IMG/VR virus record: IMGVR_UViG_3300012351_000016
Location: 1-38,186 of that record
Source: a virus
DNA: 38,186 nucleotides
Direction: 5' to 3' (one strand)
Both the position numbers and the translations under genes were made by a program. The notes beneath the pieces were generated by a model. That model had not been told where the DNA came from, ran no database searches, and saw nothing but the letters and a program-made list of their open reading frames with translations. Of the stretch, positions 3,311 through 36,279 are shown piece after piece (position 1 is the first letter of the stretch; the number at the start of each line of letters is the position of its first letter).

Positions 3311-3856
3311 TTAGAGGATATTGTCGTCCGTAACCATAAAGGTAATAGAACCTGTACCTGTCTGTGTATAGAACACACCGCGATTACAGTAGCAGTTATA
3401 CAGGTACAACGTTGTTGCGGATGGGATGCCAATACTTGCTATCAACACCCCTGTCCCGGTACCTCCATTGTAGAGGAGAGGAGAGCCGTTATAGATGCTA
3501 ATGGCCGTTATCGAACCAACGGCGTTGATAACCAGTGATCCAAGGTATTGGGGACGAAACGAAATGATGTTGTAGGCACCACTATGTCCATTGACGAAGT
3601 CGGCGGTAAACGTCCCGCCTACAACATTGGTGGTTTTGACAATCACGTCTTCCGCTGCACCCGTACCAGCTGAGAAATTCAGGCGCATCCCCTGCACGAT
3701 GTTGGTCATAGAAGCGGGAGTGACAGTTTTGTCACTTCCTGCCGTAATGGTTGTAGCCGATGTTGTGGCGACATTATCGCCTAGTGGCTGTGCGGTAGCA
3801 GCAGCTGTCACATGAAAAGGGTAGTACGGGCTGAGGTTATCGGTACGTTCATGCAT
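3311..3856 (-). CDS. Beta-rich virion protein, paralogue of its upstream neighbour
   Basis: A 181-residue protein with AGGTGG before ATG 3856. A segment with IVQGMRLNFSAGTGAAEDVIV, followed by GGTFTADFVNGHSG, matches the repeat unit found in the 312-residue protein encoded just upstream (VVPGMSLNIAAGGGTAETVVV ... TFTATFGFSHS). The two genes therefore seem to share a domain. The C-terminal half is Gly/Tyr-rich with a Cys pair (NCYCN). It is probably a capsid decoration or fibre-like protein; the function is not recognisable from sequence. Confidence 0.55.
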   Translation of the reverse strand: MHERTDNLSPYYPFHVTAAATAQPLGDNVATTSATTITAGSDKTVTPASMTNIVQGMRLNFSAGTGAAEDVIVKTTNVVGGTFTADFVNGHSGAYNIISFRPQYLGSLVINAVGSITAISIYNGSPLLYNGGTGTGVLIASIGIPSATTLYLYNCYCNRGVFYTQTGTGSITFMVTDDNIL

Positions 3857-5584: not shown

Positions 5585-6275
5585 TTAACTCGCGAGCCTC
5601 CGAACCTTGCCATTAAACAAGGGGGCTGCCTGTTCCAGCCCAAACATTATGAATGGGATGAAACGATTTGAGAGAGAACCATCTACACCAGATGGAATTT
5701 GTAAAACTGTAAAAGTTTCACTATACAACCAACGCACGGTTACGGTGCGCTCGTCAAGGACGTACATATCCTCAACTAACTGACCGTCACTGGTACGGAT
5801 ATAGGTGCCGATCGTGTTACCTGGCACGGGGATGATGGCGAGGGAGCCATTGGCCCAGTTTATCTGGTTCACGCGCACACCTGGGATGATTTCCGTGAAA
5901 TCGTTGTTGTACCTTTGGTTGGACTGTTGTTCGGTGTCGAGCGCCTGTTTGGCGTTCATGCTCATGAGGACGCACGAGGGCATGCCGCCGTTGTTGGCGG
6001 CTTTGGCCGAGACCAATTGCAGGGACTCTAAGATGTTCAGGCTCTGGATGTCGGCCTGAATGGCATTGTTGGTAGTAAACCCTGCGACTGAGCCGAGGAC
6101 GGAACGGAACCCATCAAACGCACTGGCGTTGTAGAGTCCCTGTTCGGTTGTGGCGACGCCTCCACTATTTGTTGCATTTCCTTGAAACAGAAAGTATTGG
6201 GCGTCAGTCGCTAATTTTATCATACCATTAGCGAGTTCTGTCTTCTGCGAGTCGTATGGAGCACCACCCTGGCTT
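5585..6275 (-). CDS. Major capsid protein, exon 4 (C-terminal 229 residues)
   Basis: The frame is open upstream of the first ATG and reads SQGGAPYDSQKTELANG into IKLATDAQYFLFQGN. The stretch from the YFLFQGN segment to the beta-rich C-terminus (RTVTVRWLYSETFTVLQIP) is like SU10/DUF5309-type major capsid proteins with the HK97 fold. The exon begins after intron base G6276 and completes a Val codon (GT|A). Joined to exons of 337, 203 and 20 nt it gives 1251 nt, a 416-residue protein. On its own it has no ribosome binding site at its first ATG, so it is not a separate gene. Confidence 0.8.
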
Positions 6276-6520
6276 CACTTTGTTACTCGATTATTATATC
6301 ACAAACAATCGGATAGGTCAATTTCTTCCCTATTCTTCTCATTCCTGAGAAGGTCGGAGCACCGCTTCACCCACTTACTTTAGGTAAGTGGGGCATCTCG
6401 CTTGCTCTCTACGGGCGACTTGCGTCTTCCCACGGGATTGTCCACTTCTTTCAGTTGGGAGTTTCCCCGTTTTCAGAGATGTTTAATCGAGCCGCTTACG
6501 CGGCAAGGCGGCAAGCATTT
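6276..6520 (-). ncRNA. Group I intron 3 of the major capsid gene (245 nt, no ORF)
   Basis: Read on the minus strand, helices appear in group I order. P1 pairs exon GCGGU with GCCGC, with U.G at the splice site. P3 is CATCTC/GAGATG, P4 ACGGG/CCCGT, and P6 ends in a GAC-GCAA-GTC GNRA hairpin. P7 is GAGCA/TGCTC. P8 is a 9-bp hairpin. The 3' end has the same GAGTAACAA block before the terminal G as the other three introns. P7 differs from the GACTA/TAGTC of introns 1 and 2 on both strands, a compensatory change that supports the fold. Confidence 0.85.
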
Positions 6521-6540
6521 ACCGCTGCAAGTTCTTTGAA
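6521..6540 (-). CDS. Major capsid protein, exon 3 (20-nt microexon)
   Basis: Twenty bases lie between the 3' end of intron 2 (G at 6541) and the 5' splice U (6521) of intron 3. They encode FKELAA plus two bases of Val. The exon is inferred from three things: the shared GAGTAACAA intron 3' block, the P1 pairing GCGGU/GCCGC, and frame, which is kept only if the 20 nt are included. No direct evidence for splicing is available. Confidence 0.6.
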
Positions 6541-6673
6541 CTATATTGTTACTCACCCATATGGGCGGGGACGATCATTTCTGTCGCCCTCTATATGTTT
6601 CCATATAGAGCGGACTATCGCATCATCTCGCATACGCGAGAGCATCACGCTTAGTCTCTACGGCTGCACAAGC

Positions 6674-6702
6674 TTGATATTCGCTGTCAACTATGCTATC
6701 AT
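6674..6702 (+). promoter_or_regulatory. Promoter of the LAGLIDADG gene
   Basis: TTGATA and TATCAT are separated by exactly 17 bp. The element lies inside the group I intron but points opposite to capsid transcription, letting the homing gene be expressed independently. Confidence 0.6.
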
Positions 6703-6754
6703 GTGGAGTGAGTCAAGCAGTATATGCGTGATATTAAACCCCACAGGAGAAGTC

Positions 6755-7801
6755 ATGGTTAACGAACTGTTTACTGCGTATCTTGCAGGATTTTTTGATG
6801 GAGAAGGGTCAGCCTATGTTCGGAAGAACACCTACTACGTCCATTCTCAGTCAGGCAATGACAGAGTTCAGAGGCATCGCTACACAATTATGGCGATTAT
6901 GGAGAACCTTGTGCCTGACCCTATCATTGCGACTTATCTCAACTATGGCGGGACGTTGTGTGACGTACAGCCCGTTAATCTGAATGCAAACAGAAGCTAT
7001 CGTCTTTCGTTCCATACGAAGGGAGCTTACAACTTCTTGCAAGGTATCCATCCATACCTCATCCGAAAACATCAGAATGTGACTGACATTCTCAAGGTTA
7101 AGGATCATCAGGAATATATGGACGCCATATACCCCGATATCATTGGGAAAAACGGATCGCAGCGATATCCTAGCAATGAGATACAAGAACTCGATCGCCT
7201 TGTTGTTCAAGCACGAGCGCACACTGATCGAAGTGGTAATTTTTCTCCACTGATCCCAGTGTATGAACTTGACAATAACCTATCCCATTTTGTCCCACCA
7301 GTGTACTTTGATGAGTACGGGAACGTTATCCAGGACATCGCGTTTGCTTATACTGCTGGGTATTTTGATGGTGAAGGATATGTTTTTCTGGAAAAGAGAC
7401 GCGAGAGAAAATCGACGTATCGCGCAACATTTGTCGTGTCTGATACAGTTCCAGCCTCTCTTCTATTCGTATCCAACCTCGTACCATCAAAAAAACCACT
7501 ATATGCTACAAAAAGACAGTCTTCTCGGCAGAAGGGACTGTACAGATTGTGTGCATCGAGTCGAACTGACTCACAGTACATGTTTCAGAATATCCTCCCC
7601 TACGCAATGGTGAAGCGTGGGAGGATTGAGATAGCCTTAAAATTCCTTCAAGAGTATCATTCTGGAGAAACCACTCATCTTGACGAATACATTCAGGAAG
7701 TAAAAGACTTGAATTTTCATAACAGGATGAGAGATCACCAGGATATCAAGACTTTGCTTGCCTCGCGGTTGGCTTTTCCTTCTGTATTTACAGAAAGATG
7801 A
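6755..7801 (+). CDS. Double-motif LAGLIDADG homing endonuclease
   Basis: ATG 6755 has CAGGAG 5 nt upstream, giving 348 residues. Two LAGLIDADG-type motifs, YLAGFFDGEGS near residue 8 and YTAGYFDGEGY near residue 195, each end in the acidic pair region that coordinates the catalytic metal. A protein with two motifs acts as a monomer with pseudo-symmetry. The open frame extends upstream to 6455, but that part lies in the ribozyme core and lacks a ribosome binding site. The enzyme would be expected to cut intronless capsid genes and so spread the intron; a maturase role is possible but unsupported. Confidence 0.9.
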   Translation: MVNELFTAYLAGFFDGEGSAYVRKNTYYVHSQSGNDRVQRHRYTIMAIMENLVPDPIIATYLNYGGTLCDVQPVNLNANRSYRLSFHTKGAYNFLQGIHPYLIRKHQNVTDILKVKDHQEYMDAIYPDIIGKNGSQRYPSNEIQELDRLVVQARAHTDRSGNFSPLIPVYELDNNLSHFVPPVYFDEYGNVIQDIAFAYTAGYFDGEGYVFLEKRRERKSTYRATFVVSDTVPASLLFVSNLVPSKKPLYATKRQSSRQKGLYRLCASSRTDSQYMFQNILPYAMVKRGRIEIALKFLQEYHSGETTHLDEYIQEVKDLNFHNRMRDHQDIKTLLASRLAFPSVFTER

Positions 7802-7868
7802 AGCTATTCCCCGATATCAGTGATGTTTTTCATAACAGATCACTCTGTTAAGCAGCCTCTATTCTTTG

Positions 7869-8071
7869 ACTGACGCCGCGCCCTGTTGCGAGTACGGCGA
7901 TAGGATACGTTGCCCTGACATACGTCGAGGCGGCGTAGTTGACTACGCCAAGTTCTGTGATGGCGGTTGAGCCAAGCGCAGCGGGGTCAGGAGTCGTAAT
8001 TTGGTTTGCAGCGTGTACGAGTCCATTTGCTGGTCCCTTGGCAAGCCGCTCCCATGCTGGAAACACCTTCA
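7869..8071 (-). CDS. Major capsid protein, exon 2
   Basis: The exon is 203 nt: two bases completing a Leu codon (T|TG) and 67 codons, starting KVFPAWERLAKGPANGLVH and ending GRGVS. The continuing frame runs into a stop inside intron 2. The sequence is like the region before the central domain of HK97-fold capsid proteins. It is flanked on both sides by group I intron ends. Confidence 0.75.
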
Positions 8072-8299
8072 CGAATCAAGTTGTTACTCACCCACAACAC
8101 TCTACTGTGAGCGGGGCACGCGATTTCTCCGTGCCTCTGCACCTTCTCGTATACGTGCAGATCAGACTATATCATGCCTTTCGGCCCTCGCGTTTAGTCG
8201 TTACGGTCTCTCTGCTTGCGCAGGTTGCCTCGGTGTCGCCCATGGAATGTGGGTATTCACCGATACAGCGAGGTTCTCAGACAGCGCAGCCTATACACT
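8072..8299 (-). ncRNA. Group I intron 1 of the major capsid gene (228 nt, no ORF)
   Basis: P1 pairs exon CAGCGU with GCGCUG (five Watson-Crick pairs plus U.G at the splice). P3 is CCTCGC/GCGAGG, P4 CGGTG/CACCG, P5 CCCA/TGGG, P6 ends in a TGC-GCAA-GCA GNRA hairpin, and P7 is GACTA/TAGTC. The 3' end carries GAGTAACAA then a terminal G. Removal joins GCG T|TG AAG and keeps frame. Compact size and the lack of an ORF suggest it depends on another factor for mobility or is fixed. Confidence 0.88.
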
Positions 8300-8636
8300 A
8301 CGCTGCTGGGCCAATTGTTGAGCTTAGCGCGTAAAGGGTCGGTTCCAGGTCCTGACGGATCAACGGAGACCCGTCTGTCAGGCCAGATGCTGTCCCTGAC
8401 CCCAAAATGTTCTTGGTGACAGTTGGGATAAAGGGCGCGTTGTACATTTCGCCAACCACTTTTTTACTGATTTCTCCGCTCTCGTCGCGGGGGGCAGGCT
8501 GGCTCATCATGTAGCGTAACTGGCGGTCAAGTTGCGTGGTGTTCATGGTCAGGAGGCGATCAATCTGCTCCTGCCTGCGAATCATATATACCTGGTCGCT
8601 GGGATGCATGACCTCGGTAAAGGAATTGTCGGCCAT
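8300..8636 (-). CDS. Major capsid protein, exon 1 (N-terminus)
   Basis: ATG 8636 follows GAAAGGA. The exon encodes 112 residues plus one base (MADNSFTEVMHPSDQVYMIRR ... ALSSTIGPAA) and then meets a TAG inside intron 1. Without splicing, translation would stop at residue 112. With all three introns removed the gene encodes 416 residues, a normal size for an HK97-fold capsid protein. The gene follows the protease and head-associated genes, as in most siphoviruses. Confidence 0.85.
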
Positions 8637-12174: not shown

Positions 12175-12596
12175 GCCTTTGTTCCCCTACTGCCACGTAC
12201 GCGCACAGCGGTGTGCGTACCTACTGCTGTAGCTTGCGGCTCTTTCTCAGCGCTTTCCTCAGCCTCTTCCCGCTCTGCTTCAGCGTCTGGTTGAGGTCTA
12301 TCTCCTGCTTCCACCGATTGTCCAGACTCCGCTGTCTCCGCGCTTGTTTCTGGTGTTCGTGTTTCTTCTTGCGTCGCGTCAATGATTTTCTCCTCTGGCT
12401 CGACCATGAGGTAGCGATGTGAGACGCCGTTGGTCAGGTGCAGTTTCAGGTTATCGGTGGTGTACGGTTTTCCCTGACGCAGATCAAGTTGCAAAATTGC
12501 CTCCATCGTGCCATCGTCGCGTTCAAGCAGCACCACGCCACGCAAGCAGGTGATGTCGTCGGTGGTAATGATGTTGGCATCATCGGGGTGATACAT
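12171..12596 (-). CDS. Acidic protein between portal and protease genes
   Basis: ATG 12596 follows AAGGAGAGG and lies inside the last 17 nt of the portal gene, so translation is probably coupled; 141 residues. The N-terminal half is globular (DDITCLRGVVLLERDDGTME). The C-terminal half is Glu/Ala-rich and disordered (EAEREEAEESAEKEPQ), ending in a basic tail (RVRGSRG). I do not recognise a family. Position and charge fit a head-assembly accessory. Confidence 0.6.
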   Translation of the reverse strand: MYHPDDANIITTDDITCLRGVVLLERDDGTMEAILQLDLRQGKPYTTDNLKLHLTNGVSHRYLMVEPEEKIIDATQEETRTPETSAETAESGQSVEAGDRPQPDAEAEREEAEESAEKEPQATAVGTHTAVRVRGSRGTKA

Positions 12597-14967
12597 ATGC
12601 CTCTCCTTGTTGGTAGTAGCGCGGTGCCCAACGCTTGCCTGGCTCACGTCCATCAAATTTATGCAGCGACAGCGATGGTTGTGTCTGCGACTCTCCCTGC
12701 TCTGGATACTGCTCGTCACCTAACGGAAAGCCCTTGCGGTCGTCACAGATCACCAGCGTCACCGTGTCAAAGGAGAGTGGGAGCGCTGGGACACTCTCGA
12801 TTGGCATGGGCGCGTCCGCCGCGATGTACGCGAGGGTGATATGCGGGGTGAAGCCGTGATTTTTTGCCACGAAGTAGTGCTCGCGCTCTATTTCCGCGAC
12901 CAGTTTGGTACGAAACTCGGCAAGTCCTGGGATATCAACGCTGGCGTAGACGGGCGTGAGTCCTCCGTCTTCATCCTCTGCATTGAAGCGTCCAATGCCT
13001 GCGACAGAGCCACTCAGTGGGATGCTTTCTGAGGCAACAGCGGCAATCGCCTGTTTGAGGCGGTTAGGTTTGCTAAAGGGCGTCAGGAAGTCCTGCGGCT
13101 CGTCGTTCTTGTCTCCCAGGTAAGCGAGGGTAATGTGCAGGTCTTGCACAGGCTCACCGCCAGGAATAGCTAACTGCGCCGCGATGTCTGGCGGGATGAT
13201 GAGCGCCACCATCGCGCCAGTATGGTTGGCACCTGTCGCCTGATAGTCTGGTATCAGTGCTTTGGTAGGTGTAGGAGTGGTCGCGGCGTTCTGTCCTGCC
13301 CCTCCTGTAGGGGTAGAGCGTTGGCTCGCTAGTGGGACATTACTTTTGCCACTCACGGTGTCGGGGTCTGGCTCATCGGTTGGCCCACTTGATGGGTCTT
13401 GCGCTCCCATTTCCCCTGCCAGTGGCGGCGGGCTGTAGTCGCCGGTGTTGCCACCATCGTAGGATAGCCAGGGAACAGGGCCAAAGCGCGTTGGGACGTA
13501 GAAGGTGTTGCCGCCAGGCACCGGCTGGTCGCCACGCAGTTCAAGTACCTGATTAAGCGTCATCGAGGGTAGTCCGATGAGGCTGTCTTTGGCAATCGTC
13601 GCGGCGCGTTCGGCATGCATCTGTCGCGCCGTCTCACTGACCTCTGGATAGACAATACGCAAGTTCAACTCGTCCATATTCACACGGTCGTCTGCTAGGC
13701 GAGGCGCATAATCAAACAACAACTCGCGATTCAGTTGCTCTTCCAGCAGCAAAAGGAGCGGAATAAGGCCGGTGTCTTCAAAGATTTGCTGCTGGGAGTC
13801 GCCGGTGGCTTTGTTGATGTCAAAGGTGACGCCCAGTTGTTGCGGCGATATCTGAAAAATGGCGGCGATCTTGCGTAGCAGATATATCTGCCACTCCATC
13901 CATTGATTGTCCTTAGCTGATTGTGTCAGCGGGAAGACTTTGGCTTCGGCGCTGCCGCCAAGCAGGAACAGTTCCTTACGCCCCATGAGTTCTTGTTCGT
14001 ACATCGTGCGCAGGTTCAGGATTTGTCCAGGGGTGGCATTGAGCAACTGGATGAGGTGCGGCGGCGGTTTGTGGTCAACCATGCCGCGTGCACTTTTAGA
14101 AGCAGCCTGGTCGGCCTGAATGGTATCGTACAACACTTGCACCGGCGAGAGGCCGTAGCGATGCGTCGCGGAGTTGGCGATAAACACAATGCACTCATCG
14201 TTGAAGAGTGGTACGTCAGGTCCGGTCTGGGCGGCAGGAGTAAACAGGTAGCGATAATCTCTTGGGTCGCCCTGCCAGTTAGGCAAAATCGCAATGGTCG
14301 CGCCGTCTTCGTAGTACAGGTTTTGTGGGATGCGCTGCGCATTCATGTCTTTTGAGATGACGCCACGGTCAAGCACCAGGATGTCCTCAATCACCGGCTC
14401 AATGAGCGAGCGGTAGGAGTCGCGCATTTCGTTGGGCTGGTTGAGCAGAAACTCGACCTTGCGCATGATGCTCCGATTGTACGGCTTGAGTGGGTTCTTG
14501 GGCATCACGGCAATGTCGGCACGCCCGATTTGCTGGCGACGCACATTGATGGCAGCGCGTGCCCATGGATTGGTATCCGCCAGTTGCCTGAGCATACGCG
14601 AGTTGTTGACATAATTCGGCATGTCTCGCGTGCCAGACCAACCACTAGCAATCGGGCTGGCCTGCGGGGTGCTGCCTGTAGGGGAGTGAGACAGCGTGAT
14701 ATCAGGGCGGGTGAGCGCGTCTTGCCTTGCGTCCTCACGCCGTTTGATGCCTTCCAGGTAGGACGCCAGTTTCGGGTAGCGGTTGAGCACGTTTGCGGCG
14801 TCGCGCAGGTCAAGCACCTGATCGTACTGGTTGCCTGTCCTGCCTGCTGTTGCGACAGCCTGCGTATCCGCCACAGCAAGCGCTCGCATGAGTTCCTGGT
14901 ACGCCTGCTGCACGTCAGGTGGCGTGCGCGGTGCAGCAGTGGTTTGCTTGCGGCGTCGGCGTGTCAT
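12580..14967 (-). CDS. Portal protein fused to a 2H phosphoesterase (LigT-like) domain
   Basis: A 795-residue protein; AAAAGGA precedes ATG 14967. Residues about 120-530 are a phage portal (TNPWARAAINVRRQQIGRAD ... IAAIFQISPQQLGVTFDINKATG), which forms the dodecameric DNA gate at one capsid vertex. A Pro/Gly/Ser-rich linker follows (about 535-595). The C-terminal 190 residues carry two HxT motifs, LHITLAYLG and FTPHITLAYI, about 95 residues apart, the signature of 2'-5' RNA ligase/cyclic phosphodiesterase folds. No stop or frameshift separates the parts. A typical portal is 400-550 residues, so the extra domain is a true addition. It may process RNA ends or cyclic nucleotides; this is inference. 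Confidence 0.85.
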   Translation of the reverse strand: MTRRRRKQTTAAPRTPPDVQQAYQELMRALAVADTQAVATAGRTGNQYDQVLDLRDAANVLNRYPKLASYLEGIKRREDARQDALTRPDITLSHSPTGSTPQASPIASGWSGTRDMPNYVNNSRMLRQLADTNPWARAAINVRRQQIGRADIAVMPKNPLKPYNRSIMRKVEFLLNQPNEMRDSYRSLIEPVIEDILVLDRGVISKDMNAQRIPQNLYYEDGATIAILPNWQGDPRDYRYLFTPAAQTGPDVPLFNDECIVFIANSATHRYGLSPVQVLYDTIQADQAASKSARGMVDHKPPPHLIQLLNATPGQILNLRTMYEQELMGRKELFLLGGSAEAKVFPLTQSAKDNQWMEWQIYLLRKIAAIFQISPQQLGVTFDINKATGDSQQQIFEDTGLIPLLLLLEEQLNRELLFDYAPRLADDRVNMDELNLRIVYPEVSETARQMHAERAATIAKDSLIGLPSMTLNQVLELRGDQPVPGGNTFYVPTRFGPVPWLSYDGGNTGDYSPPPLAGEMGAQDPSSGPTDEPDPDTVSGKSNVPLASQRSTPTGGAGQNAATTPTPTKALIPDYQATGANHTGAMVALIIPPDIAAQLAIPGGEPVQDLHITLAYLGDKNDEPQDFLTPFSKPNRLKQAIAAVASESIPLSGSVAGIGRFNAEDEDGGLTPVYASVDIPGLAEFRTKLVAEIEREHYFVAKNHGFTPHITLAYIAADAPMPIESVPALPLSFDTVTLVICDDRKGFPLGDEQYPEQGESQTQPSLSLHKFDGREPGKRWAPRYYQQGEAYVSPR

Positions 14968-17219: not shown

Positions 17220-17298
17220 TGGTTCCCAGTGAAGGACTCGAACCCCCAACGACGTGGTGAACCGCCACGCGCTCTACCATTTGTTGAGCTAACTGGGA
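17220..17298 (-). tRNA. tRNA with GUU anticodon (Asn), unusual anticodon loop
   Basis: Minus-strand cloverleaf: acceptor TCCCAGT/ACTGGGA, T8 A9, D-stem GCTC/GAGC, anticodon stem CGTGG/CCACG, T-arm GGGGG-TTCGAGT-CCTTC, discriminator A and an encoded CCA. The 7-nt anticodon loop is CGGTTCA, so positions 34-36 are GTT, but position 33 is G instead of the near-universal U and position 37 is C instead of a purine. All other arms are canonical. It may be a decaying gene or a loop changed for a reason. Confidence 0.8.
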
Positions 17299-17393: not shown

Positions 17394-17466
17394 AGCGAGC
17401 AACGGGGATCGAACCCGTGACCTGCTGATTGGCAACCAGCGGTTCTGCCTACTGAACTACACTCGC
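17394..17466 (-). tRNA. tRNA-Gly(GCC)
   Basis: Acceptor GCGAGTG/TGCTCGC, T8 A9, D-stem GTTC/GAAC, anticodon arm GCTGG-TTGCCAA-TCAGC with U33 and A37, variable AGGTC, T-arm ACGGG-TTCGATC-CCCGT. The encoded 3' end is T then CCG, so CCA must be made after transcription. It lies 7 nt after a small membrane protein gene, with the hairpin RNA and the other tRNA downstream. Confidence 0.93.
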
Positions 17467-34108: not shown

Positions 34109-34122
34109 GAAAGAGTTTTTTG

Positions 34123-36279
<2,157 letters not shown>

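Follow-up and report, generated by a model that had tools for sequence, protein, structure and literature searches.

Landthaler and Shub reportedly described, in 1999, introns 2 and 3 of orf142 of the Staphylococcus phage Twort together with a 23-nt exon. The gene orf142 encodes the tail tube protein, and the 23-nt exon lies between introns 2 and 3 (PMC10136302, PMC11878797) and is skipped in part of the transcripts (PMC10136302). The border rule used in our study (5' splice site after U, 3' splice site after G) returned, when applied to the Twort sequence AY954970, a 23-nt exon at nucleotides 17235–17257, which is the published length, and a 79-nt stretch of the Twort intron pair was found to be 97% identical. 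The 23S rRNA gene of Coxiella burnetii also contains a small exon, of 34 nt, between group I introns; these are described as belonging to different subgroups and skipping was observed, the gene being a bacterial rRNA gene, unlike the phage message of our study (PMC10136302). The ribonucleotide reductase gene of the Bacillus phage phiNIT1 is another example, where cDNA revealed a small exon flanked by two group I introns (PMC11878797); by our inspection of AP013029 this exon is roughly 60 nt long, and the gene is a non-virion gene, unlike that of the window. In the placozoan mitochondrial cox1 gene, a microexon of one nucleotide is present between two group I introns (PMC5436844). One nucleotide cannot supply the whole 5' strand of P1, so the order of splicing is plausibly forced there, whereas the 20 nt found in our study suffice for both introns. 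The mycobacteriophage LittleE also contains an intron in its capsid gene, probably of group I, whose opposite strand holds a LAGLIDADG-like reading frame, an arrangement shared with intron 2 of the window; as described in PMC3706429, this gene has a single intron and no microexon, unlike the window. In the literature searched, which included few subscription journals, no group I microexon of a phage was found to be below 23 nt in length.

In our study, the window (the whole stretch of viral DNA analysed, 38,186 nt) was found to contain a gene on the minus strand, at 8636–5585, with four exons and three group I introns. By sequence, it is an SU10-like major capsid gene. Exon 4 (5585–6275, 691 nt including the stop codon) matched the Pfam profile SU10_MCP (PF17236, E 3e-5) with 24.1 bits, equal to the cut-off of 24.1, and aligned with homologues, one of which, the intronless L003, matched SU10_MCP with 35.6 bits and the major head protein family phrog_752 with E 2e-9. 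Exon 1 (8326–8636, 311 nt) was placed by homologue alignment and ends with TAC GCG CT, since the homologues continue as LYAL-FVKV and lack the SSTIGPA tail seen in the unspliced open reading frame; an exon 1 coding up to its own stop (ending with SSTIGPAA) was rejected on the same ground. It is followed by intron 1 (8077–8325, 249 nt) and exon 2 (7869–8076, 208 nt), which ends with GTC AGT by homologue alignment and border enumeration. An end of exon 2 after GAGGCTGCT (reading SQRIEAA) was rejected, as the homologues read GRGVS-FKE. Intron 2 (6541–7868, 1328 nt) houses a homing endonuclease gene in antisense orientation, followed by the microexon UUCAAAGAACUUGCAGCGGU (6521–6540, 20 nt), placed by homologue continuity and border enumeration, and by intron 3 (6276–6520, 245 nt), which contains no endonuclease gene. 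The microexon reads as FKELAA plus the first two bases of a valine codon. The joined exons encode 409 residues and are open throughout. Without homologues, gene calling would return this gene as three broken open reading frames and miss the 20 nt, which is a warning for annotation. Searches with exon 4 in phage records and with the capsid queries in genome contigs gave no matches. Elsewhere in the window, a portal-type and a terminase-type open reading frame were present on the same strand as the capsid gene. The portal protein (12580–14967, minus strand) was found to carry a C-terminal 2'-5' RNA ligase/LigT-like domain on the same polypeptide.

The presence of three group I introns in the capsid message, as proposed in the earlier note, was borne out. 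The strands of P3, P4 and P7 were picked by eye, before counting, in the three introns of the window and in three introns of a related capsid gene (L004). P3 was fully paired in 6/6 introns when cognate strands were combined and in 0/30 non-cognate combinations, and all six of its base pairs showed changes on both sides across the six introns. P7 contained 5/5 pairs in all six introns; P4 contained 6/6 pairs in five introns and 5/6, with one mismatch, in intron 2. The hand-placed strands of intron 2 on the minus strand were 7820–7825 with 6643–6648 for P3, 7809–7814 with 7763–7768 for P4, and 6652–6656 with 6613–6617 for P7. In introns 1–3, the elements P3, P4 and P7 were found in this order with near-constant spacing. 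When the 3.2-kb region was scanned against Rfam with cmscan, a match to RF00028 was found in each of the three introns, with scores of 30.2 bits (E 4.3e-5), 22.2 bits (E 0.011) and 30.3 bits (E 4.1e-5) for introns 1, 2 and 3, respectively, all below the gathering score of 50. The Rfam search of the whole window, with E up to 1, listed tRNA alone and no intron match; a single tRNA gene (RF00005, E 1.9e-10) was found at 17394–17466 on the minus strand. All three introns followed the border rule of U before the intron and G at its end, with P1 runs of 3, 4 and 5 pairs for introns 1, 2 and 3, respectively. The P1 of intron 1, with three pairs, was the weakest among them (P1/P10 of 3 + 1). In blastn searches, a part of intron 3 matched 29 phage records, chiefly of staphylococcal phages, and the 3' part of intron 2 matched 68 phage records, some annotated Intron_gpI, including those of Vibrio phages. 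Both neighbours of the microexon are, by their sequence features, group I introns and are predicted to be self-splicing.

The borders of the microexon were examined in close relatives of the capsid gene, which comprised nine records from viral-contig scans, seven of them distinct (L002 is a repeat of L001; L004 and L005 share 7840 identical bases). The records L029–L032, matches of one such scan, were left out of individual alignment. In 7/7 distinct relatives, the stretch from the last residues of exon 2 through the microexon into the beginning of exon 4 was uninterrupted at both intron sites, with residues [SG][IF]KE[LMI]A[AS]V across the microexon. The junction residues were GRGVG-IKELAAV-SAGG in L001/L002 and L003, GRGLS-IKELAAV-QQGG in L015, GRGSS-IKEIAAV-QAGG in L016 and GRGVS-FKEIAAV-AQGG in L045; these five distinct capsid genes (L001, L003, L015, L016 and L045) are intronless. 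L004/L005 (GRGVS-FKEMAAV-AQGG) and L037 (GRGVS-FKELASV-AQG) contained introns at other places. More distant relatives that reached the region also aligned continuously (5/5). Around introns 2 and 3, all 5' sites after U and all 3' sites after G were enumerated, and the requirement of ten residues between GRGV and GGAPYD left 66 combinations, which were scored against the homologues. The highest score, 40, belonged to the 20-nt border set (7869/6540/6521/6275), followed by 32 for a set with a 27-nt microexon and 16 for the third. A microexon of 27 nt (6540–6514), with exon 4 starting from 6268, thus ranks second among the 66 solutions, but its similarity to the homologues is weaker, as it reads AAVNA in place of AAVSQ, and the 20-nt border has its own guide pairing of 5 + 4 (the guide was scored for the 20-nt border only). 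We regard the longer microexon as very improbable. The 20-nt microexon at 6521–6540 on the minus strand, between two group I introns, therefore stands as described in the earlier note, its borders being exact by homologues and enumeration.

It may also be argued that there is no microexon, the gene being broken (a pseudogene or an assembly artefact) and the 20-nt match arising by chance. The allele is known from one metagenomic record, and the viral scans, which may omit near records, returned no locus with a second copy. Such a chance match would have to coincide with seven-residue conservation exactly at the junction, a frame intact over 409 codons, complete cores on either side of the microexon and the same kind of interruption elsewhere in two relatives, and we give it hardly any weight.

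According to the earlier note, the 20 nt must serve intron 2 as its 3' exon contact and intron 3 as the entire 5' strand of its P1, and this agrees with the predicted pairings. The best candidate for the internal guide of intron 2 was found at 7853–7859 (minus strand), where GAG, the P10 strand, is followed by GCUG, the P1 strand. Its P1 would comprise four pairs with CAGU, the last bases of exon 2, and its P10 three pairs with UUC, nucleotides 1–3 of the microexon (6538–6540, minus strand). The best candidate for the guide of intron 3 was found at 6508–6516 (minus strand), where GCUU (P10) is followed by GCCGC (P1). It would form a P1 of five pairs with GCGGU, nucleotides 16–20 of the microexon (6521–6525, minus strand), with a U-G pair at the splice site, and a P10 of four pairs with AAGC of exon 4. 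A second copy of the intron 3 guide was present at intron nucleotide 17 (5 + 3 pairs). The P10 of intron 2 and the P1 of intron 3 showed no overlap on the microexon, with 12 nt free between them, and the cross P10 runs between introns 2 and 3 were 0 and 0. Folding was done with ViennaRNA, in which P10 and tertiary contacts are outside the model. The predicted pairing probability of the intron 3 P1 was 0.90–0.98 in all four folded constructs that contained intron 3 (unspliced or without intron 2), and that of the intron 2 P1 was 0.01–0.36. The P1 run of four in intron 2 was equalled or exceeded at 46/728 U positions of the pre-mRNA. The intron 2 guide was found to match the end of the microexon (6521–6526) with a run of six, longer than the run of four that it forms with its cognate 5' splice site; in total, 7/728 U positions had a run of at least six with this guide. 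This better match could permit misplaced cleavage at the microexon end.

From the sequence, the borders set by homology, the cores and the possible pairings, all of which were established directly, we infer splicing, dominant inclusion of the microexon and a free order of intron removal. We consider it highly probable that the gene contains three independent group I introns, that the 20-nt microexon is included, and that each intron splices alone in no fixed order. Introns 2 and 3 appear to have been inserted 20 nt apart in the strongly conserved stretch GRGVS|FKELAAV|SQGGAPYD, which would leave an isolated microexon, and each intron most likely splices on its own. The intron 2 guide would bind the end of exon 2 and the first three bases of the microexon, and the intron 3 guide would bind the last five bases of the microexon and the start of exon 4. 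Since these sets of contacts are disjoint, the introns could act in either order, with the microexon included.

The earlier note further suggested that the order of splicing may matter, as the same 20 nt serve both introns. This was not supported, as nucleotides 1–3 and 16–20 are disjoint and no robust effect was found in folding. An obligatory order could arise if one intron needs the joined exon, or if the intron 2 guide is blocked by microexon bases that become available once intron 3 has left early. When intron 3 was removed in a construct with a 30-nt flank of exon 2, the guide of intron 2 paired with microexon nucleotides 13–17 at a predicted probability of 0.30–0.83; with a 140-nt flank, however, this pairing was 0.00, and an order effect through guide mispairing was dismissed for lack of robustness. 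A hairpin across the 3' splice site of intron 2 was also predicted (0.65–0.96), but an equally stable hairpin that also pairs the last G of the intron was found for 285/1210 20-mers of the gene's own exons, and an order effect through this hairpin was rejected as not above background. The absence of overlap between P10 and P1 likewise speaks against an obligatory order, which we consider unlikely, though less so than the other alternatives to our reading. In these models, base pairing would not force an order of splicing.

Skipping of the microexon was also considered. In this scenario, one ribozyme is assembled from the 5' portion of intron 2 and the 3' portion of intron 3, and both introns are removed together with the microexon. 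Skipping has precedents in Twort (23 nt) and in the Coxiella 23S rRNA (34 nt) (PMC10136302) and in the terminase gene of SIOphi (PMC11878797), and engineered Tetrahymena intron pairs are described as skipping when both introns can form one ribozyme (PMC10136302). In the window, P3 strands from intron 2 could pair with those from intron 3 at 5/6 positions. The contacts at the exons, on the other hand, are poor, as the intron 2 guide has a P10 run of 0 with exon 4 and the intron 3 guide forms two pairs with exon 2. Introns 2 and 3 are also dissimilar, with a local score of 29 against a shuffle maximum of 25, and intron 2 was rejected as a duplicate of intron 3. In the engineered Tetrahymena pair, differing P1, P10 and P9 elements suppressed skipping, as described in PMC10136302. 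Skipping would moreover cause a frameshift, with a stop at 188 residues. We consider the composite ribozyme improbable, and inclusion of the microexon is expected to dominate over skipping.

The window thus appears to hold a further case of the Twort type of microexon, located in a capsid gene, slightly shorter than the phage cases found and flanked by non-duplicate introns. As in Twort orf142, a phage structural gene contains three group I introns, with an exon of 20-odd nucleotides between introns 2 and 3; in both genes the exon length is not a multiple of three and the borders follow the rule of U and G. A gene with two group I introns separated by an exon of a few tens of nucleotides was hence found here, the exon having 20 nt in a capsid gene where Twort has 23 nt in a tail tube gene. 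Near-identical flanking introns, a trait of Twort that is not essential, as the Coxiella pair differs, were not found; the introns on either side of the microexon are divergent, and intron 2 houses an antisense endonuclease gene, unlike in Twort. Skipping is known in Twort from the described transcripts. With a microexon even shorter than that of Twort in the gene of the main virion protein, two ribozymes would each have to be efficient at a distance of 20 nt from the other. The window, L004 and L037 jointly offer several natural intron sites and intron pairs in one homologous gene, in which the minimum spacing and the rules of order and skipping of tandem group I introns can be tested.

Intron sites were compared, in L003 numbering, among the three intron-bearing capsid genes. 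The introns were located after nucleotides 305, 513 and 533 in the window, after 375, 553 and 1166 in L004, and after 296, 375, 543 and approximately 574 in L037. The ten introns occupied nine sites, of which 375 was the only one in common; L004 and L037 contained introns at six sites other than the three of the window. Five of the nine sites were found within 61 nt, which random placement matched in 0.28% of trials; when the least certain site was dropped, 4/8 sites were within 40 nt, matched in 0.74% of trials (both tests were post hoc). The L004 introns are of group I and were found at 1213–1456, 1635–2729 and 3340–3596, with a sense-oriented HNH endonuclease gene in the middle one. L037 contained a second small exon at 7266–7296, of approximately 31 nt, encoding GAPYDPQKTE plus one base, between two group I introns; its downstream border was set by the U-G rule alone, as the following intron is cut off by the end of the contig. 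The closest intron found for intron 3 was the third intron of L004 (intron C), with a local score of 112 against shuffle maxima of 29 and 22. Intron 1 was closest to introns c of L037, A of L004 and a of L037, with scores of 70, 65 and 62, respectively (for c, with a border one base off), and intron 2 to introns C and B of L004, with 50 and 49. Relatives of one intron thus occupy different sites of the capsid gene, which suggests movement between sites. We tentatively propose, as a reading somewhat more doubtful than not, that a region of approximately 60 nt in the capsid gene is a hot spot, where at least five different group I introns at five sites would have repeatedly carved out microexons (20 nt here and approximately 31 nt in L037), and where flanking introns would be kept divergent since loss of the main virion protein would follow from skipping. 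If this is true, the family would form a natural series for how close two self-splicing introns can be.

The open reading frame of intron 2 was found at 6755–7801 on the plus strand, antisense within the intron, and encodes 348 amino acids. By its domain, it is a double-motif LAGLIDADG homing endonuclease (Pfam LAGLIDADG_3, E 4.3e-6, 27.3 bits with a cut-off of 22.5; phrog_5046, E 1.5e-24), whose cleavage activity is predicted. A search with the endonuclease in viral contigs and phage records gave no matches. The gene starts with ATG at 6755, preceded by AGGAG, and its last codons overlap the 3' strand of P4 (P4') of intron 2 and, as judged by eye, also P5 and the 5' side of P6. A promoter-like site was present at 6674–6702 (plus strand); such sites were not in excess, with 4 found and 2.8 expected. 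Also on the plus strand, at 34120–36279, an open reading frame with both domains of glycosyl hydrolase family 81 was found (E 5e-79 and 1e-44), an unexpected cargo for a phage.
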